Source of the DNA: Xestospongia bergquistia
Taxonomy: Eukaryota; Porifera; Demospongiae; Haplosclerida; Petrosiidae
Assembly (NCBI GenBank): GCA_963965975.1
Contig: OZ014413.1
Span: forward strand, 4,226,001-4,290,000
Direction of reading: 5' to 3'
Length of the DNA stretch: 64,000 nt
This document shows, one piece after another, positions 69 to 30,171 of the stretch. The translations under genes were made by a program, and so were the position numbers. Below the pieces are notes generated by a model, which did no database searches, had not been told where the DNA came from, and worked only from the letters and a program-made list of their open reading frames with translations. Each line of letters opens with the position of its first letter. Within the stretch, counting starts at the first letter, position 1.

Positions 69-90
69 GTGTTAATGCAAACCAACATAC

Positions 91-2786: not shown

Positions 2787-2913
2787 ATGCGCATAAAGCA
2801 AGTAACTACTGCCAACGCACGAGTATTTTCAGGGTTGGAGTGGTTGCGTTTAAGCTCTTGTATCATCTCTAAACTGTCTCCTAGAAGTTTAGCTGTTTCA
2901 AGTTTGCTTCAAT

Positions 2914-3547: not shown

Positions 3548-3628
3548 TTATAATCAAAAATGTCATGTTCTATGAAATACTGAAGTTTCTGGGTAAATCG
3601 ATCAACGTACGAGATGTTATACACACGA

Positions 3629-3644
3629 AACGCATAAATGCGTC
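3629..3644. repeat. Inner subterminal near-palindrome of insert 1
   Basis: The core acgcat-aa-atgcgt lies at 3630-3643, centred at 3636.5. Its centre is exactly 43 bp from that of the outer copy. The ACGCA/TGCGT half-sites resemble the motif that, from memory, the cysteine-rich domain of Trichoplusia ni piggyBac transposase binds. A role as a transposase site is inference. Confidence 0.75.
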
Positions 3645-3665
3645 GTCGGCGCTGGTGAACAATCA

Positions 3666-3693
3666 GCCACCGACGCATAAATGCGTCGGTGGC
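3666..3693. repeat. Outer subterminal hairpin of insert 1
   Basis: A perfect 13-bp stem (gccaccgacgcat at 3666-3678 and atgcgtcggtggc at 3681-3693) with a 2-nt loop aa. The centre, 3679.5, lies 23.5 bp from the element's right end. Its core GACG-N8-CGTC is shared in position and outline with the subterminal palindromes of insert 2. Confidence 0.85.
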
Positions 3694-3703
3694 GCGGAAA
3701 GGG
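3692..3703 (-). repeat. Right terminal inverted repeat of insert 1
   Basis: GCGCGGAAAGGG on the plus strand, the inverted partner of 2775-2786 (11 of 12 matching). It is followed directly by the TTAA duplication at 3704-3707. Confidence 0.88.
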
Positions 3704-3710
3704 TTAAAGA

Positions 3711-5426
3711 GTTTAGAGTGTTAATGCAAAGAAACTTACTAAACTGTTAATAACAGTTTATTTTGTTAGTCCCATAGAATCATTTAGAGTGAACTGTTTA
3801 CTTTATTAACTTCACTCAATAGTCTAAACCTTCTAAAGTCTTTAATTTAAAGACTTTAGAGTCTTAAAGCAAAGCAACTTACCAAACTGTCAATAAAAGT
3901 TTATTTAGTTAGTCCCATAAAGTCCATTAGACTGAGCTGTTTACTTTCTTAACTTCAATCAATAGTCTAAACCTTCTAAAGTCTTTAATTTAAAGACTTT
4001 ATAGTTTTAAGGCAAACCAACTTACTAAACTCTTAATAACAGTTTATTTAGTTAGTCCCATAGAGTCCTTTAGACTGAGCTGTTTACTTTATTAACTTCA
4101 CTCAATAGTCTAAACCTTCTAAAGTCTTTAATTTAAAGACTTTAGAGTGTTAATGCAAACCAACATACTAAACTGTTAATAACAGTTTATTTATTTAGTC
4201 CCATAGAGTCCTTTAGACTGAGCTGTTTACCTTATTAACTTCACTCAATAGTCTAAACCTTCTAAAGTCTTTAATTTAAAGACTTTAGAGTGTTAATGCA
4301 AACCAACTTACTAAACTGTTAATAACATTTTATTTAGTTAGTCCCATGGAGTCCTTTAGACTGAGCTGTTTACTTATTTAACTTCACTCAATAGTCTAAA
4401 CCTTCTAAAGTCTTTAATTTAAAGAGTTTAGAGTGTTAATGCAAACCATCATACTAAACTGTTAATAACAGTTTATTTAGTTAGTCCCATGGAGTCATTT
4501 AGACTGAGCTGTTTACTTAGTTAACTTCACTCAATAGTCTAAACCTTCTAAAGTCTTTAATTTAAAGAGTTTAGAGTGTTAATGCAAAGAAACTTACTAA
4601 ACTGTTAATAACAGTTTATTTTGTTAGTCCCATAGAATCATTTAGAGTGAACTGTCTACTTTATTAACTTCACTCAATAGTCTAAACCTTCTAAAGTCTT
4701 TAATTTAAAGACTTTAGAGTGTTAAAGCAAAGCAACTTACCAAACTGTCAATAACAGTTTATTTAGTTAGTCCCATAAAATCCATTAGACTGAGCTGTTT
4801 ACTTTCTTAACATCAATCAATAGTCTAAACCTTCTAAAGTCTTTAATTTAAAGACTTTATAGTTTTAAGGCAAACCAACTTACTAAACTCTTAATAACAG
4901 TTTATTTAGTTAGTCCCATAGAGTCCTTTAGACTGAGCTGTTTACTTTATTAACTTCACTCAATAGTCTAAACCTTCTAAAGTCTTTAATTTAAAGACTT
5001 TAGAGCGTTAATGCAAACCAACATACTAAACTGTTAATAACAGTTTATTTAGTTAGTCCCATAGAGTCCTTTAGACTGAGCTGTTTACCTTATTAACTTC
5101 ACTCAATAGTCTAAACCTTCTAAAGTCTTTAATTTAAAGACTTTAGAGTGTTAATGCAAACCAACTTACTAAACTGTTAATAACAGTTTATTTAGTTAGT
5201 CCCACAGAGTCCTTTAAACTAAGCTGTTTACTTTATTAACTTCACTCAATAGTCTAAACCTTCTAAAGTCTTTAATTTAAAGACTTCACAGTGTTAATGC
5301 AAACCAACATACTAAACTGTTAATAACAGTTCATTTAGTGAGTCCCATAGAGTCCATTAGACTGAGCTGTTTACTTTGTTAACTTCAATCAATAGTCTAA
5401 ACCTTCTAAAGTCTTTAATTTAAAGA
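3711..5426 (+). repeat. Six-monomer (858-bp) higher-order repeat pair
   Basis: Six monomers from about 3711 are repeated from 4569, a spacing of 858 = 6 x 143. Diagnostic variants in both copies are agagtttagagtg, gcaaagaaactt, attttgttagtc and catagaatcatttagagtg. The match also extends leftward across insert 1: 2640-2770, with its accatcatac and acttagttaac variants, matches 4432-4561. Insert 1 is therefore in the first copy only. The right boundary is approximate. Confidence 0.8.
4562..4565. other. Paralogous empty TTAA site for insert 1
   Basis: The sister higher-order-repeat copy has aat-TTAA-agagtttag uninterrupted here. The offset from 2771 is 1791 = 933 (element plus one TTAA) + 858. 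A third related empty site lies at 9704-9707. Together they confirm the element boundaries and the duplicated target. Confidence 0.88.
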
Positions 5427-8400
5427 CTATAGAGTGTTAAGGCAAACCAACTTACTAAACTGTTAATAAAAGTTTATTTAGTTAGTCCCATAGATTCCTT
5501 TAAACTAAGTTGTTTACATTATTAACTTCACTCAATAGTCTAAACCTTCTAAAGTCTTTATTTTAAAGACTTTAGAGTGTTAATGCAAACCAACTTACTA
5601 AACTGTTAATAACAGTTTATTTAGTTACTCCCATAGTGTCCTTTAAACTAAGCTGTTTACTTTATTAACTTCACTCAATAGTCTAAACCTTCTAAAGTCT
5701 TTATTTTAAAGACTTTAGTGTTAATGCAAACCAACTTACTAAACTGTTCATAACAGTTCATTTAGTTAGTCCCATAGAGTCGTTTAGACTGAGCTCTTTA
5801 CTTTGTTAACTTCAATCAATAGTCTAAACCTTCTAAAGTCTTTAATTTAAAGACTTTAGAGTGTTAATGCAAACCAACTTACTAAACTGTTAATAACAGT
5901 TATTTAGTTAGTCCCATAGAGTCCTTTAGACTGAGCTGTTTACTGTATTCACTTCAATCAATAGTTTAAAACTTCTCAAATCTTTAATTTAAAGACTTTA
6001 TAGTGGTAAAGCAAACCAACTTACTAAACTTTTAATAACAGTTTATTTAGTTAGTCCCATGGAGTCCATTAGACTGAACTGTTTACTTTATTAACATCAC
6101 TCAATAGTCTAAACCTTCTAAAGTCTTTAATTTAAACACTTTACAGTGTTAATGCAAACCAACTTACTAAACTGTTAATAACAGTTTATTTAGTTAGTCC
6201 CATAGAGTCCTTTAAACTAAGCTGTTTACTTTATTAACTTCACTCAATAGTCTAAACCTTCTAAAGTCTTTAATTTAAAGACTTTAGAGTGTTAATGCAA
6301 ACCAACTTACTAAAATGTTAATAACAGTTTATTTAGTTAGTCCCATGCAGTCCTTTAGAGTGAGCTGTTTACTTATTTAACTTCACTCAATAGTCTAAAC
6401 CTTCTAAAGTCTTTAATTTAAAGACTTTAGAGTGTTAATGCAAACCATCATACTAAACTGTTAATAACAGTTTATTTAGTTAGTCCCGTGGAGTCCTTTA
6501 GACTGAGCTGTTTACTTTGTTAACTTCACTCAATAGTCTAAACCTTCTAAAGTCTTTAATTTAAAGACTTTAGAGTGTTAATGCAAACCAACTTAATAAA
6601 CTGTTAATAACAGTTTATTTTGTTAGTCCCATAGAATCATTTAGACTGAACTGTTTACTTTATTAACTTCACTCAATAGTCTAAACCTTCTAAAGTCTTT
6701 AATTTAAAGACTTTAGAGTGTTAAAGCAAAGCAACTTACCAAACTGTTTATAACAGTTTATTTAGTTAGTCCCATAAAGTCCATTAGACTGAGCTGTTTA
6801 CTTTCTTAACTTCAATCAATAGTCTAAACCTTCTAAAGTCTTTAATTTAAAGACTTTATATTGTTAATGCAAACCAACTTACTAAACTCTTAATAACAGT
6901 TTATTTAGTTAGTCCCATAGAGTCCTTTAGACTGAGCTGTTTACTTTATTGACTTCACTCAATAGTCTAAACCTTCTAAAGTCTTTAATTTAAAGACTTT
7001 AGAGTGTTAATGCAAACCAACATACTAAACTGTTAATAACAGTTTATTTAGTTAGTCACACAGAGTCCTTTAAACTAAGCTGTTTACTTCATTAACTTCA
7101 CTCAATAGTCTAAACCTTCTAAAGTCTTTAATTTCAAGACTTCACAGTGTTAATGCAAACCAACTTACTAAGCTGTTAATAAAAGTTCATTTAGTGAGTC
7201 CCATAGAGTCCATTAGACTGAGCTGTTTACTTTGTTAACTTCAATCAATAGTCTAAACCTTCTAAAGTCTTTAATTTAAAGACTATAGAGTGTTAAGGCA
7301 AACCAACTTACTAAACTGTCAATAACAGTTTATATAGTTAGTCACATAGAGTCCATTAGACTGAGCAGTTTACTTTAATAACTTCCCTCAATAGTCTAAA
7401 CCTTCTAAAGTCTTTAATTTAAAGACTTTAGAATTTTAATGCAAACCAACATACTAAACTGTTAATAACAGTTTATTTAGTTACTCCCATAGTGTCCTTT
7501 AAACTAAGCTGTTTACTTTATTAACTTCACTCAATAGTCTAAACCTTCTAAAGTCTTTATTTTAAAGACTTTAGTGTTAATGCAAACCAACTTACTAAGC
7601 TGTTCATAACAGTTCATTTAGTTAGTCCCATAGAGTCGTTTAGACTGAGCTCTTTACTTTGTTAACTTCAATCAATAGTCTAAACCTTCTAAAGTCTTTA
7701 ATTTAAAGACTTTATAGTGTTAATGCAAACCAACTTACTAAACTGTTAATAACAGTTATTTAGTTAGTCCCATAGAGTCCTTTAGACTGAGCTGTTTACT
7801 GTATTAACTTCAATCAATAGTTTAAAACTTCTCAAATCTTTAATTTAAAGACTTTATAGTGGTAAGGCAAACAAACTTACTAAACTTTTAATAACAGTTT
7901 ATTTAGTTAGTCCCATGGAGTCCATTAGACTGAACTGTTTACTTTATTAACATCACTCAATAGTCTAAACCTTCTAAAGTCTTTAATTTAAACACTTTAC
8001 AGTGTTAATGCAAACCAACTTACTAAACTGTTAATAACAGTTTATTTAGTTAGTCCCATAGAGTCCTTTAAACTAAGCTGTTTACTTTATTAACTTCACT
8101 CAATAGTCTAAACCTTCTAAAGTCTTTAATTTAAACACTTTAGAGTGTTAATGCAAACAAACATACTAAACTGTTAATAACATTTTATTTAGTTAGTCCC
8201 ATAGAGTCCTTTAGAATGATCTGTTTTCTTAGCTAACTTCACTAAATAGTATAAACCTTCTAAAGTCTTTAATTTAAAGACTTCAGAGTGTTAATGCAAA
8301 CCAACTTGCTAAACTGTTAATAACAGTTTATTTAGTGAGTCCCTTGGAGTCCATTAGACTGAGCTGTTTACATTGTTAACTCGACTCAATAGTTAAACCT

Positions 8401-11400
8401 TCTAAAGTCTTTAATTTAAAGACTTTAGAGTGCTAAGGCAAACCAACTTACTAAACTGTTAATAACAGTTTATTTAGTTAGTCCCATAGAGTCCTCTAAA
8501 CTAAGCTGTTTACTTTATTAACTTCACTCAATAGTCTAAACCTTCTAAAGTCTTTAATTTAAAGACTTTAGAGTGTTAATGCAAACCAACATACTAAACA
8601 GTTAATAACAGTTTATTTAGTTAGTCCCATGGAGTCCTTTAGACTGAGCTGTTTACATAGTTAACTTTACTCAATTGTCTAAACCTTCTAAAGTCTTTAA
8701 TTTTAAGGCTTTAGAGTGTTAATGCAAACCAACTTACTAAACTGTTAATAACAGTTCATTTAGTTAGTCCCATAAAGTCCATTAGACTGAGCTGTTTACT
8801 TTGTTAACTTCACTCCATAGTCTAAACCTTCTAAAGTCTTTAATTTAAAGACTTTAGAGTGTTAAAGCAAAGCGACTTACCAAACTGTTAATAACAGTTT
8901 ATTTAGTTAGTCCCATAAAGTCCATTAGACTGAGCTGTTTACTTTCGTTAACTTCAATCAATAGTCTAAACCTTCTAATGTCTTTAATTTAAAAACTTTA
9001 GAGTGTTAAGGCAAACCAACTTACTAAACTGTTTATAACAGTTTATTTAGTTAGTCCCAAAGACTCCTTTAGACTGAGCTGTTTACTTTATTAACTTCAC
9101 TCAATAGTCTAAACCTTCTAAAGTCTTTAATTTAAAGACTTTAGATTGTTAATGCAAACCAACATACTAAACTGTTAATAACAGTTTATTTAGTTAGTCC
9201 CATAGAGTCCTTTAGACTGAGCTGTTTACTTTATTAACTTCACTCAATAGTCTAAACCTTCTAAAGTCTTTAATTTAAAGACTCTAGAGTGTTAATGCAA
9301 ACCAACTTACTAAACTGTTAATAACAGTTTATTTAGTTAGTCCCATAGAGTCCTTTAAACTAAGCTGTTTACTTTATTAACTTCACTCAATAGTCTAAAC
9401 CTTCTAAAGTCTTTAATTTAAAGACTTTAGAGTGTTAATGCAAACCAACTTACTAAACTGTTAATAACAGTTTATTTAGTTAGTCCCATGGAGTCCTTTA
9501 GACTGAGCTGTTTACTTATTTAACTTCACTCAATAGTCTAAACCTTCTAAAGTCTTTAATTTAAAGACTTTAGAGTGTTAATGCAATCCATCATACTAAA
9601 CTGTTAATAACAGTTTATTTAGTTAGTCCAATGGAGTCCTTTAGACTGAGCTGTTTACTTAGTTAACTTCACTCAATAGTCTAAACCTTCTAAAGTCTTT
9701 AATTTAAAGAGTTTAGAGTGTTAATGCAAAGAAACTTACTAAACTGTTAATAACAGTTTATTTTGTTAGTCCCATAGAATCATTTAGACTGAACTGTTTA
9801 CTTTATTAACTTCACTCAATAGTCTAAACCTTTTAAAGTCTTTAATTTAAAGACTTTAGAGTGTTAAAGCAAAGCAACTTACCAAACTGTTAATAACAGT
9901 TTATTTAGTTAGTCCCATAAAGTCCATTAGACTGAGCTGTTTACTTTCTTAACTTCAATCAATAGTCTAAACCTTCTAAAGTCTTTAATTTAAAGACTTT
10001 ATAGTGTTAAGGCAAACCAACTTACTAAACTCTTAATAACAGTTTATATAGTTAGTCCCATAGAGTCCTTTAGATTGATCTGTTTACTTTATTAACTTCA
10101 CTCAATAGTCTAAACTTTCTAAAGTCTTTAATTTAAAGACTTTAGAGTGTTAATGCAAACCAAGATACTAAACTGTTAATAACAGTTTATTTAGTTAGTC
10201 CCATAGAGTCCTTTAGACTGAGCTGTTTACCTTATTAACTTCACTCAATAGTCTAAACCTTCTAAAGTCTTTAATTTAAAGACTTTAGAGTGTTAATGCA
10301 AACAAACTTACGAAACTGTTAATAACAGTTTATTTAGTTAGTCCCACAGAGTTCTTTAAACTAAGCTGTTTACTTTATTAACTTCACTCAAAAGTCTAAA
10401 CCTTCTAAAGTCTTTAATTTAAAGACTTCACAGTGTTACTGTAAACCAACTTACTAAACTGTTAATAACAGCTCATTTAGTGAGTCCCATAGAGTCCATT
10501 AGACTGAGCTGTTTACTTTGTTAACTTCCATCAATAGTCTAAACCTTCTAAAGTCTTTAATTTAAAGACTATAGAGTGTTAAGGCTAACCAACTTACTAA
10601 ACTGTCAATAACAGTTTATATAGTTAGTCACATAGAGTCCATTAGACTGAGCAGTTTACTTTAATAACTTCCCTCAATAGTCTAAACCTTCTAAAGTCTT
10701 TAATTTAAAGACTTTAGAGTTTTAATGCAAACCAACATACTAAACTGTTAATAACAGTTTATTTAGTTACTCCCATAGTGTCCTTTAAACTAAGCTGTTT
10801 ACTTTATTAACTTCACTCAATAGTCTAAACCTTCTAAAGTCTTTATTTTAAAGACTTTAGTGTTAATGCAAACCAACTTACTAAACTGTTCATAACAGTT
10901 CATTTAGTTAGTCCCATAGAGTCGTTTAGACTGAGCTCTTTACTTTGTTAACTTCAATCAATAGTCTAAACCTTCTAAAGTCTTTAATTTAAAGACTTTA
11001 GAGTGTTAATGCAAACCAACTTACTAAACTGTTAATAACAGTTATTTAGTTAGTCCCATAGAGTCCTTTAGACTGAGCTGTTTACTGTCTTAACTTCAAT
11101 CAATAGTTTAAAACTTCTCAAATCTTTAATTTAAATACTTTATAGTGGTAAGGCAAACCAACTTACTAAACTTTTAATAACAGTTTATTTAGTTAGTCCC
11201 ATGGAGTCCATTAGACTGAAGTGTTTACTTTATTAACATCACTCAATAGTCTAAACCTTCTAAAGTCTTTAATTTAAAGACTTGAGAGTGTTAATGCAAA
11301 CCAACTTACTAAACTGTTAATAACAGTTTATTTAGTTAGTCCCATAGAGTCCTTTAAACTAAGCTGTTTACTTTATTAACTTCACTCAATAGTCTAAACC

Positions 11401-12310
11401 TTCTAAAGTCTTTCATTTAAACACTTTAGAGTGTTAATGCAAACCAACTTACTAAACTGTTAATAACATTATATTTAGTGAGTCCCATAGAGTCCTTTAG
11501 ACTGAGCTGTTTTCTTAGCTAACTTCGCTAAATAGTCTAAACCTTCTAAAGTCTTTAATTTAAAGACTTCAGAGCGTTAATGCAAACCAACTTACTAAAC
11601 TGTTAATAACAGTTTATTTAGTGAGTCCCTTGGAGTCCATTAGACTGAGCTGTTTACTTTGTTAACTTCACTCAATAGTCTAAACCTTCTAAAGTCTTTA
11701 ATTTAAAGACTTTAGAGTGCTAAGGCAAACCAACTTACTAAACTGTTAATAACAGTTTATTTAGTTAGTCCCATAGAGTCCTCTAAACTAAGCTTTTTAC
11801 TTTATTAACTTCACTCAATAGTCTAAACCTTCTAAAGTCTTTAATTTAAAGACTTTAGAATGTTAATGCAAACCAACATACTAAACAGTTAATAACAGTT
11901 TACTTAGTTAGTGCCATGGAGTCCTTTAGACTGAGCTGTTTACATACTTAACGTTACTCAATTGTCTAAACCTTCTAAAGTCTTTAATTTAAAGACTTTA
12001 GAGTGTCAATGCAAACCCACTTACTAAACTGTTAATAACAGTTCATTTAGTTAGTCCCATGAAGTCCATTAGACTGAGCTGTTTACTTTGTTAACTTCAC
12101 TCAATAGTCTAAAACTTCTAAAGTCTTTAATTTAAAGACTTTAGAGTGTTAAAGCAAAGCAACTTACCAAACTGTTAATAACAGTTTATTTAGTTAGTCC
12201 CATAAAGTCCATTAGACTGAGCTGTTTACTTTCGTTAACTTCAATCAATAATCTAAACCTTCTAAAGTCTTTAATTTAAAGACTTTAGAGTGTTAAGGCA
12301 AACCAACTTA

Positions 12311-12713
12311 CTAAACTGTTTATAACAGTTTCTTTAGTTAGTCCCATAGTGTCCTTTAAAGTAAGCTGTTTACATTATTAACTTCACTCAATAGTCTAAA
12401 CCTTCTAAAGTCTTTAACTTAAACACTTTAGAGTGTTAATGCAAACCAACATACTAAACTGTTAATAAGACTTTAGAAGGTTAAGACTATTGAGTGAAGT
12501 TAATAAAGTAAACAGCTCAGTCTAAAGGACTGTATGGGACTAACTAAAGAAAATGTTATTAACAGTTTAGTATGTTGGTTTGCATTAACACTCTAAAGTG
12601 TTTAAGTTAAAGACTTTAGAAGGTTTAGACTATTGAGTGAAGTTAGTAATGTTAACAGCTTACTTTAAAGGACTCTATGGGACTAACTAAAGAAACTGTT
12701 ATTAACAGTTTAG
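12311..12713. repeat. Fold-back inverted junction of the two satellite arms
   Basis: The monomer orientation flips once in the window, here. The last left-arm stretch (12311-12468, 158 bp) is the reverse complement of 12556-12713 with 4 mismatches by my alignment. The arms share rare variants: a gtgtttaagtt version of dyad A, a taatgt variant before aacagcttactttaaagg, and actaaagaaactg. The 87-bp spacer 12469-12555 is right-arm satellite starting with gactttagaaggttaagac. Outside the arms identity falls to ordinary monomer background. The breakpoint has a short aa overlap. This looks like an inverted duplication, such as a template switch, rather than a random join of two arrays. A library or assembly chimera cannot be excluded from sequence alone. 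Confidence 0.85.
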
Positions 12714-13299
12714 TATGTTGGTTTGCATTAACACTCTGAAGGCTTTAAATTAAAGACTTTAGAAGGTTTAGACAATTGAGTGAAGTTAACTAAGTAAACA
12801 GCTCAGTCTAAAGGACTCCATGGGACTAACTAAATAAACTGTTATTAACATTTAGGTATGTTGGTTTGCATTAACACTCTAAAGTCTTTAAATTAAAGAC
12901 TTTACAAGGTTTAGACTATTGATTGAAGTTAACAAAGTAAACAGCTCAGTCTAATGGACTTTATGGGACTGACTAAATAAACTGTTATTAACAGTTTAGT
13001 ATGTTGGTTTGCATTAACACTATAAAGTGTTTAAATTAAAGACTTTGGAAGGTTTAGACTATTGAGTTAAGTTAATAAAGTAAACAGCTCAGTCTAAAGG
13101 ACTTAATGGGACTAACTAAATAAAATTTTATTAACAGTTTAGTAAGTTGGTTTGCCTTAACATTCTAAATTCTTTAAATTAAAGACTTTACAACGTTTAG
13201 ACTATTGAGTGAAGTTAATAAAGTAATCAGCTTAGTTTAAAGGACTCTATGGGACTAACTAAATAAACTGTTATTAACAGTTTAGTATGTTGGTTTGCA

Positions 13300-14730
13300 T
13301 TAACGCTCTAAAGTCTTTAAATTAAAGACTTTAGAAGGTTTAGACTATTGAGTGAATTTAATAAAGTAAACAGCTCAGTCTAATGGACTCCATAGGACTA
13401 ACTAAATAAACTGTTATTAACAGTTTAGTAAGTTGGTTTGCATTAACACTTTAAAGTCTTTAAATTAAAGACTTTAGAAAGTTTAGACTATTGATTGAAG
13501 TTAATAAAGTAAACAGCTTATTTTAAAGGACTCTATGGGACTAACTAAATAAAATGTTATTAACGGTTTAGTAAGTTGGTTTGCATTAACACTCTAAAGT
13601 GTTTAAATTAAAGACTTTAGAAGGTTTAGACTATTGAGTGAAGTTAATAAATTAAACGGCTTTGTTTAAAGGACTCCATGGGACTAACTAAATAAACTGT
13701 TATTAACAGTTTAGTATCTTGGTTTTCATTAACACTCAAAAGTCTTTAAATTAAAGACTTTAGAAGTTTTAGACTATTGAGTGAAGTTAATAAAGTAAAC
13801 AGCTCAGTCTAAAAAACTCTATGGGACTAACTAAATAAACTGTTATTAACAGTTTAGTATGTTGGTTTGCATTAACACTCTAAAGTCTTTAAATTAAAGA
13901 CTTTAGAAGGTTTAGACTATTGAGTGAAGTTAACTAAGTAAACAGCTCAGTCTTAAGGACTCCATGGGACTAACTAAATAAACTGTTATTAACAGTTTAG
14001 TAAGTTAGTTTGCATTAACACTCTAAAGTCTTTAAATTAAAGACTTTAGAAGGTTTAGACTATTGAGTGAATTTAACAAAGTAAACAGCTCAGTCTAATG
14101 GACTCCATAGGACTAACTAAATAAACTGTTATTAACAGTTTAGTAAGTTGGTTTGCATTAACACTTTAAAGTCTTTAAATTAAAGACTTTAGAAGGTTTA
14201 GACTATTGATTGAAGTTAATAAAGTAAACAGCTTAGTTTAAAGGACTCTATGGGACTAACTAAATAAAATGTTATTAACAGTTTAGTAAGTTGGTTTGCA
14301 TTAACACTCTAAAGTGTTTAAATTAAAGACTTTAGAAGGTTTAGACTATTGAGTGAAGTTAATAAAGTAGCGGCTTTGTTTAACGGACTCCATGGGACTA
14401 ACTAAATAAACTGTTATTAACAGTTTAGTATCTTGGTCTTCATTAACACTCAAAAGTCTTTAAATTAAAGACTTTAGAAGTTTTAGACTATTGAGTGAAG
14501 TTAATAAAGTAAACAGCTCAGTCTAAAAAACTCTATGGGACTAACTAAATAAACTGTTATTAACAGTTTAGTATGTTGGTTTGCATTAACACTCTAAAGT
14601 CTTTAAATTAAAGACTTTAGAAGGTTTAGACTATTGAGTGAAGTTAACTAAGTAAACAGCTCAGACTAAAGGACTCTATGGGACTAACTAAATAAGCTGT
14701 TATTAACAGTTTAGTAAGTTGGTTTGCATT
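13300..14730 (-). repeat. Five-monomer local higher-order repeat pair
   Basis: Monomers around 13.3-14.0 kb are repeated around 14.0-14.7 kb. The private series runs: gactccataggac variant, actttaaagtc, a monomer with ggctttgttta, then ttagtatcttgg with attaacactcaaaag, then ctaaaaaactctatgg. The ttagtatctt landmark is at 13711 and 14425, 714 bp apart, which is five monomers less 1 bp. Boundaries are approximate. Confidence 0.65.
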
Positions 14731-17317: not shown

Positions 17318-18442
17318 TTTAAATGAAAGACTTTAGAAGGTTTAGACTATTGAGTGAAGTTAATAAAGTAAACAGCTTAGTTTAAAGGACTCTATGGGAC
17401 TAACTAAATAAACTGTTATTAACAGTTTAGTAAGTTGGTTTGCATTAACACTCTCAAGTCTTTAAATTAAAGACTTTAGAAGGTTTAGACTATTGAGTGA
17501 AGTTAATAATGTAAACAGCTTAGTTTAAAGGACTCTCTGGGACTAACTAAATAAACTCTTATTAACAGTTTAGTAAGTTTGTTTGCATTAACACTCTAAA
17601 GTCTTTAACTTAAAGAGTTTAGAAGGTTTAGACTACTGAGTGAAGTTAATAAAGTAAACAGCTCTGTCTAAAGGACTCTATGGGACTAACTAAATAAACT
17701 TTTATAAAAGGCTTAGTAAGTTGGTTTGCCTTAGCACTCTAAAGTCTTTAAATTAAAGACTTTACAAGGTTTAGCCTAATGATTGAAGTTAAGAAAGTAA
17801 ACAGCTCAGTCTAATGGACTTTATGGGACTAACTTAATTAACTGTTATTAACAGTTTAGTAAGTTAGTTTGCATTAACAGTCTAAAGTCTTTAAATGAAA
17901 GACTTTAGAAGGTTTAGACTATTGAGTGAAGTTAATAAAGTAAACAGCTTTGTTTAAAGGACTCTATGGGACTAACTAAATAAACTGTTATTAACAGTTT
18001 AGTAAGTTGGTTTGCATTAACACTCTCAAGTCTTTAAATTAAAGACCTTAGAAGGTTTAGACTATTGAATGAAGTTAATAATGTAAACAGCTTAGTTTAA
18101 AGGACTCTATGGGACTAACTAAATAAACTCTTATTAACAGTTTAGTAAGTTTGTTTGCATTAACACTCTAAAGTCTTTAACTTAAAGAGTTTAGAAGGTT
18201 TAGACTACTGAGTGAAGTTAATAAAGTAAACAGCTCTGTCTAAAGGACTCTATGGCACTAACTAAATAAACTTTTATAAAAGGCTTAGTAAGTTGGTTTG
18301 CCTTAACACTCTAAAGTCTTTAAATTAAAGACTTTAGAATGTTTAGACTATTGATTGAAGTTAATAAAGTAAACAGCTTAGTTTAAAGGAGTCTTGGGAC
18401 GAACTATTAAACTGTTATTAACAGTTTAGTAAGTCGGTTTGC
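17318..18442 (-). repeat. Four-monomer (572-bp) tandem duplication
   Basis: The monomer series tctttaaatgaaagac, ctctcaagtc, aacttaaagagtttag with actactgag, and cttttataaaag with gcttagtaag occurs twice in succession. The cttttataaaag landmark is at 17699 and 18271, exactly 572 = 4 x 143 bp apart. Boundaries are approximate. Confidence 0.7.
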
Positions 18443-21400
18443 ATTAACACTCTAAAGTCTTTAAATTAAAGAGTTTAGAAGGTTTAGACTATTGAGTGAA
18501 GTTAAAAAAATAAACAGCTTAGTTTAAAGGACTCTATGGGACTAACTAAATAAACTGTACTAACAGTTTAGTAAGTCGGTTTGCATTAACACTCTAAAGT
18601 CTTTAAATTAAAGACTTTAGGAGGTTTAGACTATTGAGTGAAGTTAATAAAGTAAACAGCTTAGTTTAAAGGACTCTATGGGACTGACTAAATAAACTGT
18701 TATTAATAGTTTAGTATGTTGGTTTGCATTAACACTATAAAGTCTTTAAATTAAAGACTTTAGAAGGTTTAGACTATTGAGTGAAGTTAATAAAGTAAAC
18801 AGCTCAGTCTAAACGACTCTACGGGACTAACTAAATAAACTGTTATTAACAGTTTAGTGAGTTTGGTTACATTAACACTCTAAAGTCTTTAAATTAAAGA
18901 CTTTAGAAGGTTTAGACTATTGAGTGAAGTTAATAAAGTAAACAGCTTACTTAAAAGGACTCTATGGGACTAACTAAATAAACTGTTATTAACAGTTTAG
19001 TAAGTTGGTTTGCATTAACACTCTAAAGTCTTTAAATGAAAGACTTTAGAAGGTTTAGACTATTGAGTGAAGTTAATAAAGTAAACAGCTTAGTTTAAAG
19101 GACTCTATGGGACTAACTAAATAAACTGTTATTAACAGTTTAGTAAGTTGGTTTGCATTAGCACTCTAAAGTCTTTAAATTAAAGACTTTAGAAGGTTTA
19201 GACTATTGAGTGAAGTTAATAAAGTAAACAGCTTAGTTTAAAGGACTCTATGGGACTAACTAAATAAACTGTTATTAACAGTTTAGTATGTTGGTTTGCA
19301 TTAACACTCTAAAGTCTTTAACTTAAAGAGTTTAGAAGGTTTAGACTTCTGAGTGAAGTTAATAAAGTAAACAGCTAAGTCTAAAGGACTCTATGGGACT
19401 AACTAAATAAACTTTTATAAAAGGTTTAGTAAGTTGGTTTGCCTTAACACTCTAAAGTCTTTAAATTCAAGACTTTACAAGGTTTAGACTATTGATTGAA
19501 TTTAAGAAAGTAAACAGCTCAGTCTAATGGACTTTAAGGGACTAACTTAATTAACTGTTATTAACAGTTTAGTAAGTTAGTTTGCATGAACACTCTAAAG
19601 TCTTTAAATTAAAGACTTTAGAAGTTTAGACTATTGAGTGAAGTTAACTAAGTAAACAGCTCAGTCTAATGGACTCTATGGGACTAACTAAATAAACTGT
19701 TATTTACAGTTTAGTAAGTTAGTTTGCATTAACACTCTAAAGTCTTTAAATTAAAGACTTTAGAAGTTTAGACTATTGAGTGAAGTTAACTAAGTAAACA
19801 GCTCAGTCTAAAGGACTCTATGGGACTAACTAAATAAACTGTTATTTACAGTTTTGTAAGTTTGTTTGCATTAACACTCTAAAGTCTTTAAATTAAAGAC
19901 TTTACAAGGTTTAGACTATTGATTGAATTTAATAAAGTAAACAGCTTAGTTTAAAGGAGTCTATGGGACTAACTAAATAAACTGTTATTAACAGTTTAGT
20001 AAGTTGGTTTGCATTAACACTCTAAAGTCTTTAAATTAAAGAGTTTAGAAGGTTTAGACTATTGAGTGAAGTTAAAAAAGAAAACAGCTTAGTTTAAAGG
20101 ACTGTATGGGACTAACTAAATAAACTGTTATTAACAGTTTAGTAAGTTGGTTTGCATTAACACTCTAAAGTCTTTAAATTAAAGACTTTAGAAGGGTTAG
20201 ACTATTGAGTTAAGTTAACTAAGTAACCAGCTCAATCTAAAGGACTCAATTGGACTAACTAAATAAACTGTTATTAACAGTTTAGTATGTTGGTTTGCAT
20301 TAACACTCTAAAGTCTTTAAATTAAAGACTTTACAAGGTTTAGACTATTGATTTAAGTTAACAATGTAAACAGCTCAGTCTAATGGACTTTATGGGACTG
20401 ACTAAATAAACTGTTACTAACAGTTTAGAATGTTGGTTTGCATTCACACTATAAAGTGTTTAAATTAAAGACTTTAGAAGGTTTAGACTATTGAGTGAAG
20501 TTAATAAAGTAAACAGATCAGTCTAAAGGACTTAATGGGACTAACTAAATAAAATTTTATTAACAGTTTAGTAAGTTGGTTTGCCTTAACATTCTAAAGT
20601 CTTTAAATTAAAGACTTTACAACGTTTAGACTATTGAGTGAAGTTAATAAAGTAATCAGCTTAGTTTAAAGGACTCTATGGGACTAACTAAATAAACCGT
20701 TATTAACAGTTTAGTATGTTGGTTTGCATTAACACTCTAAAGTCTTTAAATTAAAGACTTTAGAAGGTTTAGACTATTGAGTGAAGTTAACAAAGTAAAC
20801 AGCTCAGTCTAAAGGACTCCATAGGACTAACTAAATAAACTGTTATTAACAGTTTAGTAAGTTGGTTTGCATTAACACTTTAATCCTTTAAATTAAAGTC
20901 TTTAGAAGGTTTAGACTATTGATTGAAGTTAATAAAGTAAACAGCTTAGTTTAAAGGACTCTATGGGACTAACTAAATAAAATGTTATTAACAGTTTAGT
21001 AAGTTGGTTTGCATTAACACTCTAAAGTGTTTAAATTAAAGACTTTAGAAGGTTTAGACTATTGAGTGAAGTTAATAAAGTAAACAGCTTAGTTTAAAGG
21101 ACTCTATGGGACTAACTAAATAAACTGTTATTAACAGTTTAGTATCTTGTTTTTCATTAACACTCAAAAGTCTTTAAATTAAAGACTTTAGAAGGTTTAG
21201 ACTATTGAGTGAAGTTAATAAAGTAAACAGCTCAGTCTAAAGGACTCTATGGGACTAACTAAATAAACTGTTATTAACACTTTAGTATGTTGGTTTTCAT
21301 TAACACTCAAAAGTCTTTAAATTAAAGACTTTAGAAGGTTTAGACTATTGAGTGAAGTTAAGAAAGTAAACAGCTCAGTCTAAAGGACTCTATGGGACTA

Positions 21401-23460
21401 ACTAAATAAAATGTTGTTAACAGTTTAGTATGTTGGTTTGCATTAACACTCTAAAGTCTTTAAATTAAAGACTTTAGAAGGTTTAGACTATTGAGTGAAG
21501 TTAAGAAAGTAAACAGCTTAGTCTAAAGGACTCATGGGACTAAATAAATAAACTGTCGTTAACAGTTTAGTATGTTTCTTTGCATTAACACTCTGAAGTC
21601 TTTAAATTAAAGACTTTAGAAGGTTTAGACTATTGAGTGAAGTTAACTAAGTAAACAGCTCAGACTAAAGGACTCTATGGGACTAACTAAATAAACTGTT
21701 ATTAACAGTTTAGTAAGTTGGTTTGCATTAACACTCTAAAGTCTTTAAATTAAAGACTTTAGAAGGTTTAGACTATTGAGTGAAGTTAATAAAGTAAACA
21801 GCTTAGTTTGAAGGACTCTATGGGACTGACTAAATAAACTGTTATTAATAGTTTAGTATGTTGGTTTGCATTAACACTATAAAGTCTTAAAATTAAAGAC
21901 TTTAGAAGGTTTAGACTATTGAGTGAAGTTAATAAAGTAAACAGCTCAGTCTGAACGACTCTACGGGACTAACTAAATCAACTCTTATTAACAGTTTAGT
22001 AAGTTGGGTTACATAAACACTCTAAAGTCTTTAAATTAAAGACTTTAGAAGGTTTAGACTCTTGAGTGAAGTTTATAAAGTAAAGAGCTTACTTAAAAGG
22101 ACTCTATGGTACTAACTAAATAAAATGTTATTAACAGTTTAGTAAGTTGGTTTGCATTAACACTCTAAAGTCTTTAAATGAAAGACTTTAGAATGTTTAG
22201 ACTATTGAGTGAAGTTAATAAAGTAAAAAGCTTAGTTAAGAGGACTCTATGGGACTAACTAAATAAACTGTTATTAACAGTTTAGTATGTTGGTTTGCAT
22301 TAACACTCTCAAGTCTTTAAATTAAAGACTTTAGAAGGTTTAGACTATTGAGAGAAGTTAATAATGTAAACAGCTTAGTTGAAAGGACTCTATGGGACTA
22401 ACTAAATAAACTGTTATTAACAGTTTAGTATGTTGGTTTGCATTAACACTCTAAAGTCTTTAACTTAAAGAGTTTAGAAGATTTAGACTACTGAGTGAAG
22501 TTAATAAAGTAAGCAGCTCAGTCTAAAGGACTCTATGGGACTAACTAAAGAAACTTTTATAAAAGGTTCAGGAAGTTGGTTTGCCTTAACACTCTCAAGT
22601 CTTTAAATTAAAGACTTTAGAAGGTTTAGACTATTGATTGAAGTTAAGAGGGTAAACAGCTCAGTGTAATGGACACTATGGGACTAACTTAATTAACTCT
22701 TATTAACAGTTTAGTAAGTTAGTTTGCATTAACACTCTAAAGTCTTTAAATTAAAGACTTTAGAAGGTTTAGACTATTGAGTGAAGTTAACTAAGTAAAC
22801 AGCACAGTCTAAAGGACTCTATGGGACTAACTAAATAAACTGTTATTTACAGTTTAGTAAGTTGGTTTGCATTAACACTCTAAAGTCTTTAAATTAAAGA
22901 CTTTACAAGGTTTAGACTATTGATTGAAGTTAATAAAGTAAACAGCTTAGTTTAAAGGAGTCTATGGGACTAACTAAATAAACTGTTATTAACAGTTTAG
23001 TAAGTTGGTTTGCATTAACACTCTAAAGTCTTTAAATTAAAGAGTTTAGAAGGTTTAGACTATTGAGTGAAGTTATCTAAGTAAACAGCTCAGTGTAAAG
23101 GACTCCATGGGACTAACTAAAGAAACTGTTATTAACAGTTTAGTAAGTTGGTTTGCATTAACACTCTAAAGTGTTTAAATTAAAGACTTTAGAAGGTTTA
23201 GAGTATTGAATGGAGTTAATAAAGTAAACATCTTAGTTTAAAGGACTCTATGGGACTGACTAAATAAACTGTTATTAACAGTTTAGTATATTGGTTTGCA
23301 TTAACACTCTAAAGTCTTTAAATTAAAGACTTTAGAAGGGTTAGACTATTGAGTTTAGTTAACTAAGTAAACAGCTCAGTCTAAAGGACTCCATGGGACT
23401 AACTAAATAAACTCTTATTAACAGTTTAGCATGTTGGTTTGCATTAACACTCTAAAGTCT

Positions 23461-24604
23461 TTAAATTAAAGACTTTACAAAGTTTAGACTATTGATTGAA
23501 GTTAACAAAGTAAACAGCTCAGAATAATGGACGTTATGGGACTGACTAAATAAACTGTTGTTAACAGTTTAGTATGTTTGTTTGCATTAAGACTATAAAG
23601 TGTTTAAATTAAAGACTTTAGAAGGTTTAGACTATTGAGTGATGTTAATAAAGTAAACAGCTCAGTCTAAAGTACTTAATGGGACTAACTAAATAAAATG
23701 TTATTAACAGTTTAGTAAGTTGGTTTGCCTTAACATTCTAAAGTCTTTAAGTTAAAGACTTTACAACGTTTAGACTATTGAGTGAAGTTAATAAAGTAAT
23801 CAGCTTAGTTTAAAGGACTCTATGGGACTAACTAAATAAACTGTTATTAAGAGTTTAGTAAGTTTGTTTGCATTAACACTCTAAAGTCTTTAAATTAAAG
23901 ACTTTAGAAGGGTTAGTCTATTGAGTTAAGTTAACTAAGTAAACAGCTCAGTCTAAAGGACTCTATGGGACTAACTAAATAAACTGTTATTAACAGTTTA
24001 GTAAGTAGGTTTGCATTAACACTCTAAAGTCTTTAAATTAAAGACTTTACAAAGTTTAGACTATTGATTGAAGTTAACAAAGTAAACAGCTCAGAATAAT
24101 GGACGTTATGGGACTGACTAAATAAACTGTTGTTAACAGTTTAGTATGTTTGTTTGCATTAAGACTATAAAGTGTTTAAATTAAAGACTTTAGAAGGTTT
24201 AGACTATTGAGTGATGTTAATAAAGTAAACAGCTCAGTCTAAAGTACTTAATGGGACTAACTAAATAAAATGTTATTAACAGTTTAGTAAGTTGGTTTGC
24301 CTTAACGTTCTAAAGTCTTTAAATTAAAGACTTTACAACGTTTAGACTATTGAGTGAAGTTAATAAAGTAATCAGCTTAGTTTAAAGGACTCTATGGGAC
24401 TAACTAAATAAACTGTTATTAACAGTTTAGTAAGTTTGTTTGCATTAACACTCTAAAGTCTTTAAATTAAAGACTTTAGAAGGGTTAGTCTATTGAGTTA
24501 AGTTAACTAAGTAAACAGCTCAGTCTAAAGGACTCTATGGGACTAACTAAATAAACTGTTATTAACAGTTTAGTAAGTAGGTTTGCATTAACACTCTAAA
24601 GTCT
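23461..24604 (-). repeat. Four-monomer (572-bp) tandem duplication
   Basis: Two nearly identical 572-bp copies. The rare string agaataatggacg is at 23521 and 24093. Both copies also share aactgttgttaacag, cattaagactataaag, gtgatgttaataaag, aaagtacttaatggg and gtaagtaggtttg. Identity is clearly higher than between neighbouring monomers, so the duplication is recent. Boundaries are approximate. Confidence 0.82.
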
Positions 24605-27600
24605 TTAAATTAAAGACTTTAGAAGGTTTAGACTATTGATTGAAGTTAATAAAGTAAACAGCTTAGTTTAAAGGACTCTATGGGAATAACTAAATAAAAT
24701 GTCATTAACAGTTTAGTAAGTTGGTTTGCATTAACACTCTAAAGTGTTTAAATTAAAGACTTTAGAAGGTTTAGACTATTGAGTGAAGTTAATAAAGTAA
24801 ACAGCTCAGACTAAAGGACTCTATGGGACTAACTAAATAAACTGTTATTAACAGTTTAGTAAGTTGGTTTGCATTAACACTCTAAAGTCTTTAAATTAAA
24901 GACTTTAGAAGATTTAGACTATTGAGTGAAGTTAACTAAGTAAACAGCTCAGTCTAAAGGACTCTATGGGACTAACTAAATAAACTGTTATTAACAGTTT
25001 AGTAAGTTGGTTTGCATTAACACTCTAAAGTCTTTAAATTAAAGACTTTACAAGGTTTAGACTATTGATTGAAGTTAATAAAGTAAGCAGCTTAGTTTAA
25101 AGGAGTCTATGGGACTAACTAAATAAACTGTTATTAACAGTTTAGTAAGTTTGTTTGCATTAACACTCTAAAGTCTTTAAATTAAAGTGTTTAGAAGGTT
25201 TTGACTATTGAGTGAAGTTATCTAAGTAAACAGGTCAGTCTAAAGGACTCCATGGGACTAACTAACTAAACTGTTATTAACAGTTTAGTAAGTTGGTTTG
25301 CATTAACACTCTAAAGTGTTTAAATTAAAGACTTTAGAAGGTTTAGACTATTGAGTGAAGTTAATAAAGTAAACAGCTTAGTTTAAAGGACTCTATGGGA
25401 CTGACTAAATAAACTGTTATTAACAGTTTAGTATGTTGGTTTGCATTAACACTCTAAAGTCTTTAAATTAAAGACTTTAGAAGGGTTAGACTATTGAGTG
25501 AAGTTAACTAAGTAAACAGCTCAGTCTAAAGGACTCCATGGGACTAAATAAATAAACTGTTATTAACAGTTTAGTAAGTTGGTTTGCATTAACACTCTAA
25601 AGTCTTTAAATTAAAGACTTTAGAAGGTTTAGACTATTGAGTGAAGTTAACAAAGTAAACAGCTCAGGCTAAAGGACTCCATTGGACTAACTAAATAAAC
25701 TGTTATTAACAGTTTGGTAACTTGGTTTGCATTAACACTTTAAAGTCTTTAAATTAAAGACTTTAGAAGGTTTAGACTATTGATTGAAGTTAATAAAGTA
25801 AACAGCTTAGTTTAAAGGACTCCATGGGACTAACTAAATAAAATGTTATTAACAGTTTAGTAAGTTGGTTTGCTTTAACACTTTAAAGTCTTTAAATTAA
25901 AGACTTTACAACGTTTAGACTATTGAGTTAAGTTAATAAAGTAAACAGCTTAGTTTAAAGGACTCTATGGGACTAACTAAATAAACTGTTATTAACAGTT
26001 TAGTATGTTGGTTTTCATTAACACTCAAAAGTCTTTAAAATAAAGACTTTAGAAGGTTTAGACTATTGAGTGAAGTTAATAAAGTAAACAGCTCAGTCTA
26101 AAGGACTCAATGGAACTAAGTAAATAAACTGTTATTAACAGTTTAGTATGTTGGTTTGCATTAACACTCTAAAGTCTTTAAAATAAAGACTTTAGAAGGC
26201 TTAGACTATTGAGTGAAGTTAATAAAGTAAACAGCTCAGTCTAAAGGACTCTATGGGACTAACTAAATAAACTGTTATTATCAGTTTAGTATGTTTGTTT
26301 GCATTAACACTCTGAAGTCTTTAAATTAAAGACTTTAGAAGGTTTAGACTATTGAGTGAAGTTAACTAAATAAACAGCTAAGACTAAAGGACTCTATGGG
26401 AGTAACTAAATAAACTGTTATTAACAGTTTAGTAAGTTGGTTTGCATTAACACTCTAAAGTCTTTAAATTAAAGACTTTAGAAGGTTTAGACTATTGAGT
26501 GAAGTTAATAAAGTAAACAGCTTAGTTTAAAGGACTCTATGGGACTGACTAAATAAACTGTTATTAATAGTTTAGTATGTTGGTTTGCAGTAACACTATA
26601 AAGTCTTTAAATTAAAGACTTTAGAAGGTTTAGACTATTGAGTGAAGTTAATAAAGTAAACAGCTCAGTCTAAAGGACTCTACGGGACTAACTAAATAAA
26701 ATGTTATTAACAGTTTAGTAAGTTGGGTTACATTAACACTCTAAAGTCTTTAAATTAAAGACTTTAGAAGGTTTAGACTATTGAGTGAAGTTAATAAAGT
26801 AAACAGCTTACTTAAAAGAACTCTATGGGACTAACTAAACAAAATGTCATTAACAGTTTAGTAAGTTGGTTTGCATTAACACTCTAAAGTCTTTAAATGA
26901 AAGACTTTAGAAGGTTTAGACTATTGAGTGAAGTTAATAAAGTAAACAGCTTAGATTAAAAGGACTCTATGGGACTAACTAAATAAACTGTTATTAACGG
27001 TTTAGTAAGTTGGTTTGCATTAACACTCTCAAGTCTTTAAATTAAACACTTTAGAAGGTTTAGACTATTGAGTGAAGTTAATAAAGTAAACAGCTTAGTT
27101 TTAAGGACTCTATGGGACTAACTAAATAAACTGTTATTAACAGTTTAGTATGTTGGTTTGCATTAACACTCTTAAATCTTTAACTTAAAGTGTTTAGAAG
27201 GTTTAGACTACTGAGTGAAGTTAATAAAGTAAACAGCTCAGTCTAAAGGACTCTATGGGACTAACTAAATAATCCTTTATAAAAGGTTTAGTAAGTTGGT
27301 TAGCCTTAAGACTCTAAAGTCCTTAAATTAAAGACTTTACAAGGTTTAGACAATTGATTGAAGTTAAGAAAGTAAACAGCTCAGTCTAATGGACTTTATG
27401 GGACTAATTTAATTAACTTTTATTAACAGTTTAGTAAGTTGGTTTGCATTAACACTCTAAAGTCTTTAAATTAAAGTCTTTAGAAGGTTTAGACTATTGA
27501 GTGAAGTTAACTAAGTAAACAGCTCAGTCTAAAGGACTCTATGGGACTAACTAAATAAACTATTATTTACAGTTTAGTAAGTTGGTTTGCATTAACACTC

Positions 27601-28793
27601 TAAAGTCTTTAAATTAAAGACTTTAGAAGGTTTAGACTATTGATTGAAGTTAATAAAGTAAACAGCTTAGTTTAAAGGAGTCTATTTGACTAACTAAATA
27701 AACTGTTATTAACAGTTTAGTAAGTTGGTTTGCATTAACACTCTAAAGTCTTTAAATTAAAGACTTTAGAAGGTTTAGACTATTGAGTGAAGTTAACTAA
27801 GTAAACAGCTCAGTCTAAAGGACTCCATGGGATTAAGTAAATAAACTGTTATTAACAGTTTAGTAAGTTGGTTTGCATTAAGACTCTAAAGTCCTTAAAT
27901 TAAAGACTTTAGAAGGTTTAGACTATTGAGTCAAGTTAATAAAGTAAACATCTTAGTTTAAAGGACTCTATGGGACAGACTAAATAAACTGTTATTAACA
28001 GTTTAGTATGTTGGTTTGCATTAACACTATAAAGTGTTTAAATTAAAGACTTTAGAAGGTTGAGACTATTGAGTGAAGTTAATAAAGTAAACAGCTCAGT
28101 CTAAAGGACTTAATGGGACTAACTAAATAAAATTTTATTAACAGTTTAGTAAGTTTGTTTGCCTTAACACTATAAAGTCTTTAAATTAAAGACTTTAGAA
28201 TGTTTAGACTATTGAGTGAAGTTAACTAAGTAAACAGCTCAGTCTAAAGGACTCCGTGGGACTAACTAAATAAACTGTTATTAACAGTTTCGTAAGTTGG
28301 TTTGCATTAACACTCTAAAGTCTTTAAATTAAAGACTTTAGAAGGTTTAGGCTATTGAGTGAAGTTAATAAAGTAAACAGCTTAGTCTAAAGGACTCTAA
28401 GCGACTAACTAAATAAACTGTTATTAACAGTTTAGTATGTCGGTTTGCATTAACACTCTGAAGTCTTTAAATTAAAGACATTAGAAGGTTTAGACTATTG
28501 AGTGAAGTTAACTAAGTAAACAGCTCATTCTAAAGGACTCTATGGGACTAACTAAATAAATTGTTACTATCAGTTTAGTAAGTTGGTTTGTGTTAACACT
28601 ATAAAGTGTTTAAATTAAAGACTTTAGAAGGTTTAGACTATTGAGTGAAGTTAAAAAAGTAAACAGCTTAGTTTAAAGGACTCTATGGGACTAACTAATT
28701 AAACTGTTATTAACAGTTTAGTATCGTGGTTTGCATTAACACTCTAAAGTCTTTAAATTAAGGACTTTAGAAGGGTTAGTTTATTGAGTTAAG

Positions 28794-28797
28794 TTAA
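28794..28797. repeat. Target-site duplication TTAA, left of insert 2
   Basis: TTAA at 28794-28797 pairs with TTAA at 29453-29456. The original site is the gaagTTAActaag segment of the monomer, a different TTAA from the one used by insert 1. Confidence 0.95.
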
Positions 28798-28805
28798 CCC
28801 TTTAC
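28798..28805 (+). repeat. Left terminal inverted repeat of insert 2
   Basis: CCCTTTAC, the perfect inverted match of GTAAAGGG at 29445-29452. The first six bases CCCTTT are shared with both ends of insert 1. Confidence 0.88.
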
Positions 28806-28820
28806 ATGCCAAGTTTCTGC

Positions 28821-29411
28821 GTGGGCGTATACCGTAATTACCAAATTATTTTGCCCTGAGGTAATAAGCACGTTTTTTTACTTCGTTTTGCGTTTTATTC
28901 CTACTATCTTGATGTTGGAAGTGTTTAGAAGTCGAGTTTCTTTCATAAAGTGAATGATAAAGATGGTAAGTTGTTCTTAAACTGTACTTTTAATGTTTTA
29001 CCTTTTATAAATGATTATTGTTAAATATAGTATCGGCTACAATAGTGACAACGATGAACTCTTTCAGCTCCACGTATTATAAACAGTGTACTATATACTA
29101 TTGCTCTATATTTTAATGATTGTTGTTAAATGATAATAATGAATAGTTGCATGTTTACTTTGTAGCTTCACACTTACCTTTGATCGAGTGACGCGCTTGA
29201 CAATCAAAATGATACAAAGATGAGTTTTCAAGCATAGATGGTCTGAAAGCAAGAGCGAAGAGACACAGCAGCTACTTTAGTATTTCTACCTTGCAACCCA
29301 GCTACCTGAAGCACGACTAGCTAAAAAAGATGCTTCCACAAAGCAAACCAGAGCGCCAAACTCGGTATAAAGCAGACGACGAGTATACTCGTCATTGGGA
29401 ATTACGCCCAC
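28821..29411. repeat. Subterminal inverted pair of insert 2
   Basis: GTGGGCGTA at 28821-28829 and TACGCCCAC at 29403-29411 are perfect reverse complements. They start 23 bp from the left end and end 41 bp from the right end respectively. The right copy lies between the two 16-18 bp palindromes. GTGGGCGT also occurs inside insert 1 at 3140-3147. Confidence 0.7.
29378..29393. repeat. Inner subterminal palindrome of insert 2
   Basis: A perfect 16-bp palindrome, GACGAGTATACTCGTC, centred at 29385.5. The outer copy is centred 43 bp further right, the same spacing as the paired near-palindromes in insert 1. Confidence 0.88.
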
Positions 29412-29419
29412 TTTCTTAA

Positions 29420-29437
29420 TGACGAGTATACTCGTCA
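29420..29437. repeat. Outer subterminal palindrome of insert 2
   Basis: A perfect 18-bp palindrome, TGACGAGTATACTCGTCA, centred at 29428.5, which is 23.5 bp from the element end. The corresponding hairpin of insert 1 is also 23.5 bp from its end. It is likely a transposase-binding repeat by analogy with piggyBac internal repeats (inference). Confidence 0.88.
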
Positions 29438-29444
29438 ACGGGAA

Positions 29445-29452
29445 GTAAAGGG
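29445..29452 (-). repeat. Right terminal inverted repeat of insert 2
   Basis: GTAAAGGG, the inverted partner of 28798-28805, immediately followed by the TTAA duplication at 29453-29456. Confidence 0.88.
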
Positions 29453-30167: not shown

Positions 30168-30171
30168 TTAA
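30168..30171. other. Paralogous empty TTAA site for insert 2
   Basis: The sister five-monomer copy reads gagttaagTTAAcaaag without interruption. The offset from 28794 is 1374 = 659 + 715. It confirms the element boundaries and shows that insertion followed the duplication. Confidence 0.88.

Follow-up and report, generated by a model that had tools for sequence, protein, structure and literature searches.

Paired Subterminal Palindromes at the Gene-5′ End of Sponge piggyBac Elements as Probable Tandem Binding Sites for piggyBat-Type Transposases

Transposon ends of the kind treated here have been described for piggyBat from Myotis lucifugus, the left end of which carries GCGGGA at bp 11–16, 55–60, and 99–104, each time followed by an imperfect palindrome. 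In piggyBat, recognition of GCGGGA falls largely to the core domain, and the palindrome at bp 19–30, centered at 24.5, is read by the paired cysteine-rich domains (CRDs) of one dimer, with R543 and E545 of the CRD loop contacting C19, G-19, and C-20 (PMC11707139). In the tetrameric complex, the left end is bent at bp 25 and 69 by CRD dimers and the right end is devoid of CRD sites; the oligonucleotide published with it confirms GCGGGA at positions 11 and 55 (PMC13405395). In piggyBac from Trichoplusia ni (T. ni), a CRD dimer binds bp 17–33, and the same palindrome is found on both ends at different depths (PMC7351741). We focus here on two piggyBac elements residing in a 64,000-nucleotide stretch of contig OZ014413.1 from the sponge Xestospongia bergquistia (hereafter the window), each with a pair of palindromes at one end. 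On the strength of sequence comparison and the published complexes, these palindromes are very probably sites at which dimers of the piggyBat-type transposases encoded by the elements' own families bind in tandem.

The window, part of a 146-Mb genome in 21 contigs whose size and content are eukaryotic, is filled by a 143-bp satellite array into which both elements were inserted. When each element is removed in silico, the emptied site can be aligned to satellite units elsewhere in the window with 83 of 84 bases matching for insert 1 and 82 of 84 for insert 2, identifying both as precise TTAA insertions. Both ends of both inserts display TTAACCCTTT, a CC[C/T]T-type terminal repeat as in the piggyBac superfamily. 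Insert 1 is 98% identical over 680 bp at the 3′ end to a 2.85-kb element of family F1 (L025) containing a piggyBac transposase gene; on the 5′ side, two stretches of 174 and 127 bp are 93% identical to it, and the middle is deleted. Insert 2 aligns with a 2.61-kb element of family F2 (L016) in three blocks of 85–90% identity. Judging from these alignments, the inserts are internally deleted copies of piggyBac elements with transposase-encoding relatives elsewhere in the same genome.

The profile for piggyBac transposases (PF13843) retrieved at least 122 matches from this genome, with some genes giving two. A sample of 54 transposase loci (L009–L038, L047–L066, L072–L075) was examined, and 11 families with a readable 5′ end were distinguished; L065 and L072, together with L071 (upstream sequence only), were placed in none of them. 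Core identity among the families ranges from 27 to 66%. The first-pass annotation of the window had regarded the inserts as two different transposons. The F1 and F2 transposases are 29% identical in the aligned core and are separated by the longest internal branch of the 11-family tree, a tree that five families enter as projected pieces. The F1 end was found at 36 places and the F2 end at 40, the latter after 35 opposite-strand self-matches were set aside. The transposase-encoding copies that were compared (6 of the 11 F1 copies with a tip and four F2 copies) are TTAA-flanked and have different flanks, and the 5′ tip reads CTAA in four F1 copies. In both families the palindromic end lies upstream of the transposase gene, and these partners, which the first-pass annotation had proposed to seek, have their palindromes at the same places as the inserts.

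The encoded proteins resemble the piggyBat transposase. D160, D245, and D350 are invariant in six aligned families and align with piggyBat D237, D309, and D413 (the DDD triad). For the F1 and F3 transposases, the two that were tested, the nearest solved relative is piggyBat (9c0f; E-values of 6e-55 and 3e-53, respectively), with T. ni piggyBac ranking behind at about 1e-31. The Cys/His motif of the piggyBat-pattern CRD is present in all 11 families, and alignment to the piggyBat CRD gave an i-Evalue of 0.00097 for F1 and a weak 5.1 for F3. The elements are of a kind already known, namely members of the piggyBac superfamily with piggyBat-type ends. A 40-residue query against the PDB returned no match, and a search of viral contigs and other genome contigs for related loci yielded 23 and 44 stretches that fit the pattern, none of which was confirmed as a relative.

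At the gene-5′ end of all 11 families, a 16-bp palindrome with 6 to 8 of 8 pairs fills bp 17–32 from the TTAA, placing its center at 24.5. The words themselves are family-specific: GACGCATTTATGCGTC in F1, GACGAGTATACTCGTC in F2, GACGCGATATCGCGTC in F3, GGCTCCATATGGAGCC in F4, GTCACGAATTCGTGAC in F5, AACGCATTTATGCGTC in F6, GTTGCAGATTTGCAAC in F7, TACGGCAAATGGCGTA in F8, GACGTGTATACACGTC in F9, TGCGCAATTTTGCGCA in F10, and CGCATATGAATATGCG in F11. The second site follows at 43 bp in F1, F2, F5, F8, F9, and F10, at 44 bp in F3, F4, F7, and F11, and at 35 bp in F6 only. Most families possess two sites, and F5 has a third. The constancy of depth and pitch that the first-pass annotation proposed to test thus holds for the depth throughout and for the pitch, at 43 or 44 bp, in ten families, F6 being the exception. 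Each of the first ten families has, at bp 17–32, a palindrome with 6 or more of 8 pairs; in 5000 trials with shuffled ends, 4796 gave no such family, 198 gave one, and 6 gave two, which excludes a chance origin of the palindrome position. Only 3 of 130 offsets (17, 60, and 61) are common to two or more families. The 11th family (L074) was found by its tip and has the palindrome in place with 7 of 8 pairs.

The palindrome does not repeat alone. The 8 bp preceding sites 1 and 2 agree within families at 62 of 88 positions, compared with 16–29 of 88 when the comparison is shifted by 1–10 bp; when re-dealt among families, agreement averaged 36 and peaked at 56, with 0 of 20,000 trials reaching 62. 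A short motif and a palindrome therefore recur together as a two-part unit. An exact-pattern count across the genome that allowed spacings of 29–59 placed F1 pairs at 43 in 27 of 27 cases and F6 pairs at 35 in 4 of 4, counts that include copies duplicated from one another (for example, three on contig C13). The 12 F2 loci examined (L015–L018, L039–L046) all display a pitch of 43. At the level of individual transposase loci, the 5′ tip was recognized in 44 of 54, the other 10 having no recognizable tip. The first palindrome is in place in 36 of these 44, and the best second palindrome stands at the family pitch in 34 (L075 only via a tie). Four of the eight site 1 misses result from 1-bp deletions (L014, L053, L055, L063) and one from a mutated palindrome (L052); in the remaining three (L012, L013, L066), the apparent tip is probably not the real one.

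Within the window (Table 1), the palindrome centers given by the first-pass annotation proved correct to half a base in both inserts and its 43-bp spacing exact. Its distance of 23.5 bp between the outer center and the TTAA also agrees with ours, being measured from the last base before the TTAA. A further proposal was that the outline GACG...CGTC is kept and only the middle confers specificity. The outline is present in both copies of insert 2 and in the outer copy of insert 1, but the inner copy of insert 1 starts with AACG, and other families read GGCT, GTCA, GTTG, TGCG, and CGCA at bp 17–20. As a general rule the GACG outline was accordingly dropped: the entire half-site diverges between families of like geometry.

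Table 1. Features of the window, with positions counted from its first base
Feature	Position	Strand	Basis
143-bp satellite array, target of both insertions	1..64000	.	tandem-repeat detection (TRF)
Insert 1, non-autonomous F1 piggyBac element, both flanking TTAA included, palindromic (gene-5′) end right	2771..3707	-	comparison with L025, empty site
Insert 1, site 2 palindrome AACGCATAAATGCGTC, bp 60–75, center 3636.5, 43-bp pitch	3629..3644	.	
Insert 1, unit 2 core motif GCGCCGAC	3645..3652	-	read directly; unit repetition tested on F1 representative L025
Insert 1, site 1 palindrome GACGCATAAATGCGTC, bp 17–32 from tip, center 3679.5, proposed CRD-dimer site	3672..3687	.	
Insert 1, unit 1 core motif GCGCCACC	3688..3695	-	read directly; unit repetition tested on F1 representative L025
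Insert 2, non-autonomous F2 piggyBac element, both flanking TTAA included, palindromic end right	28794..29456	-	comparison with L016, empty site
Insert 2, site 2 palindrome GACGAGTATACTCGTC, bp 60–75, center 29385.5, 43-bp pitch	29378..29393	.	
Insert 2, unit 2 core-motif position	29394..29401	-	by analogy with F2 representative L016, not window copy
Insert 2, site 1 palindrome GACGAGTATACTCGTC, bp 17–32 from tip, center 29428.5	29421..29436	.	
Insert 2, unit 1 core-motif position	29437..29444	-	by analogy with F2 representative L016, not window copy

Since the sites of piggyBat and T. ni piggyBac lie at the same depths, the distances seen in the window are those of a known transpososome. We propose that an outer dimer on the palindrome centered at bp 24.5 would position the catalytic cores on the TTAA tip, and that an inner dimer, 43–44 bp further in, would help synapsis with the other end. 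A tetrameric transpososome of this type would fix the distances and leave the palindrome sequence free to change with the CRD. Dimer occupancy, bending, and the tetramer are here transferred from the published piggyBat structures, and homology and geometry together suggest that the transposases bind these palindromes. The idea of a conserved protein geometry at one end, reminiscent of the transposase-bound internal repeats of piggyBac, had been put forward in the first-pass annotation and is strongly supported by the family geometry and the published complexes. The likeness to piggyBac holds as to mechanism, for which piggyBat, where one end bears two or three dimer sites in tandem, is a better model than T. 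ni piggyBac.

The palindromes might instead be promoter or regulatory sites, bound by a host factor or by the transposase in auto-repression, with the spacing a property of the promoter. The end that carries them is indeed the gene-upstream one, and because the transposase probably occupies them, some autoregulation is plausible. Their positions are nevertheless fixed from the tip, yet the distance from the tip to the longest open reading frame varies from ~130 bp (L019) to 713 (L025) and 837 (L009), introns not being considered. Gene-less non-autonomous copies keep both sites, the half-sites differ by family and track the CRD, and the equivalent sites of piggyBat were structurally demonstrated to be CRD sites. 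As the main reason for the geometry, a promoter function is thus unlikely.

Another explanation, to which we give almost no credence, is that the palindromes work not by docking protein but by folding into DNA hairpins or cruciforms. Perfect 16-bp palindromes could extrude, and cruciforms have been raised for subterminal repeats of piggyBac-like elements (PMC12324416). However, a fixed pitch, a core motif, and covariation with the CRD are not expected of cruciforms, and the solved piggyBat complex, as described, contains bent duplex DNA held by CRDs (PMC13405395).

Several observations weigh against the assignment of the palindromes as tandem transposase sites. The 35-bp pitch of F6 departs from 43/44. 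The second sites of F4 and F9 are only weakly palindromic, so that the pitch in these two families was set by sequence likeness to the first site. The F10 tip was located by a scan that used palindrome offset 16, leaving nine of the first ten families free of this bias. The 3′ end may not be quite site-free: F8 has a palindrome there at bp 16–31, one base off, and palindromes also occur near bp 5–6 of the F1 and F6 3′ ends and around bp 25–34 in F2 and F5. Finally, the geometry could be partly inherited.

As regards F6, the copies compared (6 of the 7 with a tip) agree in the 3′-side flank and, over its first 14 bases or more, in the 5′-side flank, with L034 one base apart. F6 is hence one insertion multiplied by segmental duplication, and its pitch says little on function; a working 35-bp variant was rejected on these grounds, and the 35-bp form may be a dead deletion. 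Of the nine 3′ ends, none reaches 6 of 8 palindromic pairs at bp 17–32, and no offset is common to two families; F7 likewise carries palindromic sequence on this end, at another, unshared place. Short GC-rich palindromes were separately observed within the first 31 bp of the 3′ ends of F1 (L025; GCGCATGCGC), F6 (L057), and F8 (L049; CTGCGCATGCGC), their places differing.

Shared descent in its strict form holds that an ancestral end was merely inherited and that the spacing has no current function. All families do encode homologous transposases. On the other hand, core identity falls as low as 27%, no relationship between the spacers is apparent by eye, and the palindromes have been altered on both arms yet are still palindromes at the same place. 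Inheritance as the sole cause is therefore very improbable.

Evidence on how the palindromes diverge was sought in a covariation scan of 80 pairs, each combining a CRD loop column with a half-site base, across the 11 families. One half-site per family was used (first palindrome, left arm, one representative). The scan was made after a pattern at bp 19–20 had been noticed by eye, and the grouping of residues into classes, L together with W and Q together with T, was in part post hoc. The column aligned with piggyBat E545 paired with base 18 ranked first of the 80 (0.0005 of shuffles): an acidic residue accompanies A18 in all six families that possess one (F1, F2, F3, F6, F8, F9), Q or T accompanies G18 in three of three (F4, F10, F11), and L or W accompanies T18 in two of two (F5, F7). 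Of the 11 families, 10 have R in the R543 column, each of them together with C19, and the single family lacking R has T19. When whole half-sites were re-dealt, 2 of 5000 trials reached the best-pair value over all pairs. Shuffles within the two deep clades gave a perfect map in 674 of 200,000, and with six phylogenetic units the map is 1 of 60 arrangements. The acid-A pairing is represented in both deep clades of the tree, as is the hydrophobic-T pairing, so inheritance of a single ancestral state cannot account for the whole map. A carboxylate facing the amino group of A and a hydrophobic side chain facing the methyl group of T make chemical sense.

Other results temper a literal code. Base 18 adjoins, but is not among, the bases contacted in the piggyBat paper. 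Pairs without a known contact also score: bp 22 with the column seven positions ahead of the conserved T (0.002), and bp 23 with the column three positions behind it (0.009). The two contacts initially considered score less well, at 0.098 for bp 20 with the E545 column and 0.094 for bp 19 with the R543 column. The first site of piggyBat fits the map (E545, A18); in the second site the equivalent base is C. A near one-residue, one-base code, in which the E545-aligned residue reads base 18 and R543 reads C19, would render co-resident ends orthogonal on a constant scaffold and specificity predictable from sequence. We advance it tentatively, with doubt slightly outweighing belief; resting on a small sample of 11 families, it is a testable rule and not a result. 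In our reading, the inserts of the window may share GACG because both transposases are acidic at the E545-aligned place.

Comparison with described systems places these elements nearest to piggyBat, with which they share tandem left-end dimer sites, a repeat of about the 44 bp found there, a core motif ending at bp 16, a palindrome centered at 24.5, perhaps a right end without a repeated palindromic unit, and, by alignment, a similar Cys/His pattern of the CRD. The difference is that only 5 of 8 pairs at bp 17–32 are palindromic in piggyBat, an imperfect match, whereas those of the sponge families attain 6 to 8 of 8 with family-specific words, and that the pitch, 44 bp in piggyBat, is 43 in six families, 44 in four, and 35 in one. 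T. ni piggyBac shares the TTAA target and a CRD dimer on a palindromic repeat at bp 17–33 of the left end (PMC7351741), but its CRD fold differs from that of piggyBat (PMC11707139), it has one palindrome per end, and its transposase is more distant. T. ni-type ends were rejected for the sponge elements, as two sites lie on one end and the best palindromes of the opposite end do not include their words. Subterminal repeats are a known feature of insect piggyBac-like elements, though no common tip distance or pitch is given in the excerpts of these reports (PMC12324416, PMC8086355, PMC12732532, PMC10140906). The beetle survey of piggyBac-like elements analyzes 20–24-bp terminal repeats, and in neither this survey nor the one on bees does the main text contain the terms palindrom, subterminal, or internal repeat. 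Neither a common tip distance and pitch across families nor a CRD residue-to-base rule was found in the literature searched, which consisted, in part-text, mostly of work outside subscription papers. What seems to be new is that the whole half-site, GACG included, diverges and follows the CRD.

Additional features were observed in the window and around the sampled loci. The satellite orientation flips at window positions 12378–12481: a unit probe gave 80 reverse matches at 14–12378 and 355 forward matches at 12481–63838, and TRF likewise reports two separate arrays. Transposase copies with mostly equal stop-codon counts recur every 65–175 kb on contigs C5, C6, C10, and C15, a pattern that tandem duplication of very large segments would produce. 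Some F1 copies (among L002, L005, L006, and L007) are located near contig ends, 5–25 kb from the starts of C11 and C5 and ~8 kb from the end of C15. Positions 1–1510 and 2440–3114 of L005 (C11, near the contig start) consist of a tandem repeat of ~128 bp. Its unit includes TTAACCCTTTATTTCCTACGTTATTTGGCGCCAAAAATA, in which a tip resembling that of piggyBac precedes a palindrome at nearly the same place as in the families; L002 and L005 both hold this repeat sequence besides F1 copies. The repeat in L005 is possibly a satellite grown from a piggyBac end.

The published piggyBat structures come from one element of one bat. Because eleven diverged families keep nearly the same ruler (16 bp, then a 16-bp palindrome, with the second at 43–44 bp in ten), the architecture looks general for piggyBat-type transposases. 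A single genome with many families offers a data set for covariation between ends and transposases. If the code is true, ends and transposases could be matched from sequence alone, the non-autonomous elements that a given transposase moves would be predictable, and orthogonal pairs could be chosen for genome engineering.

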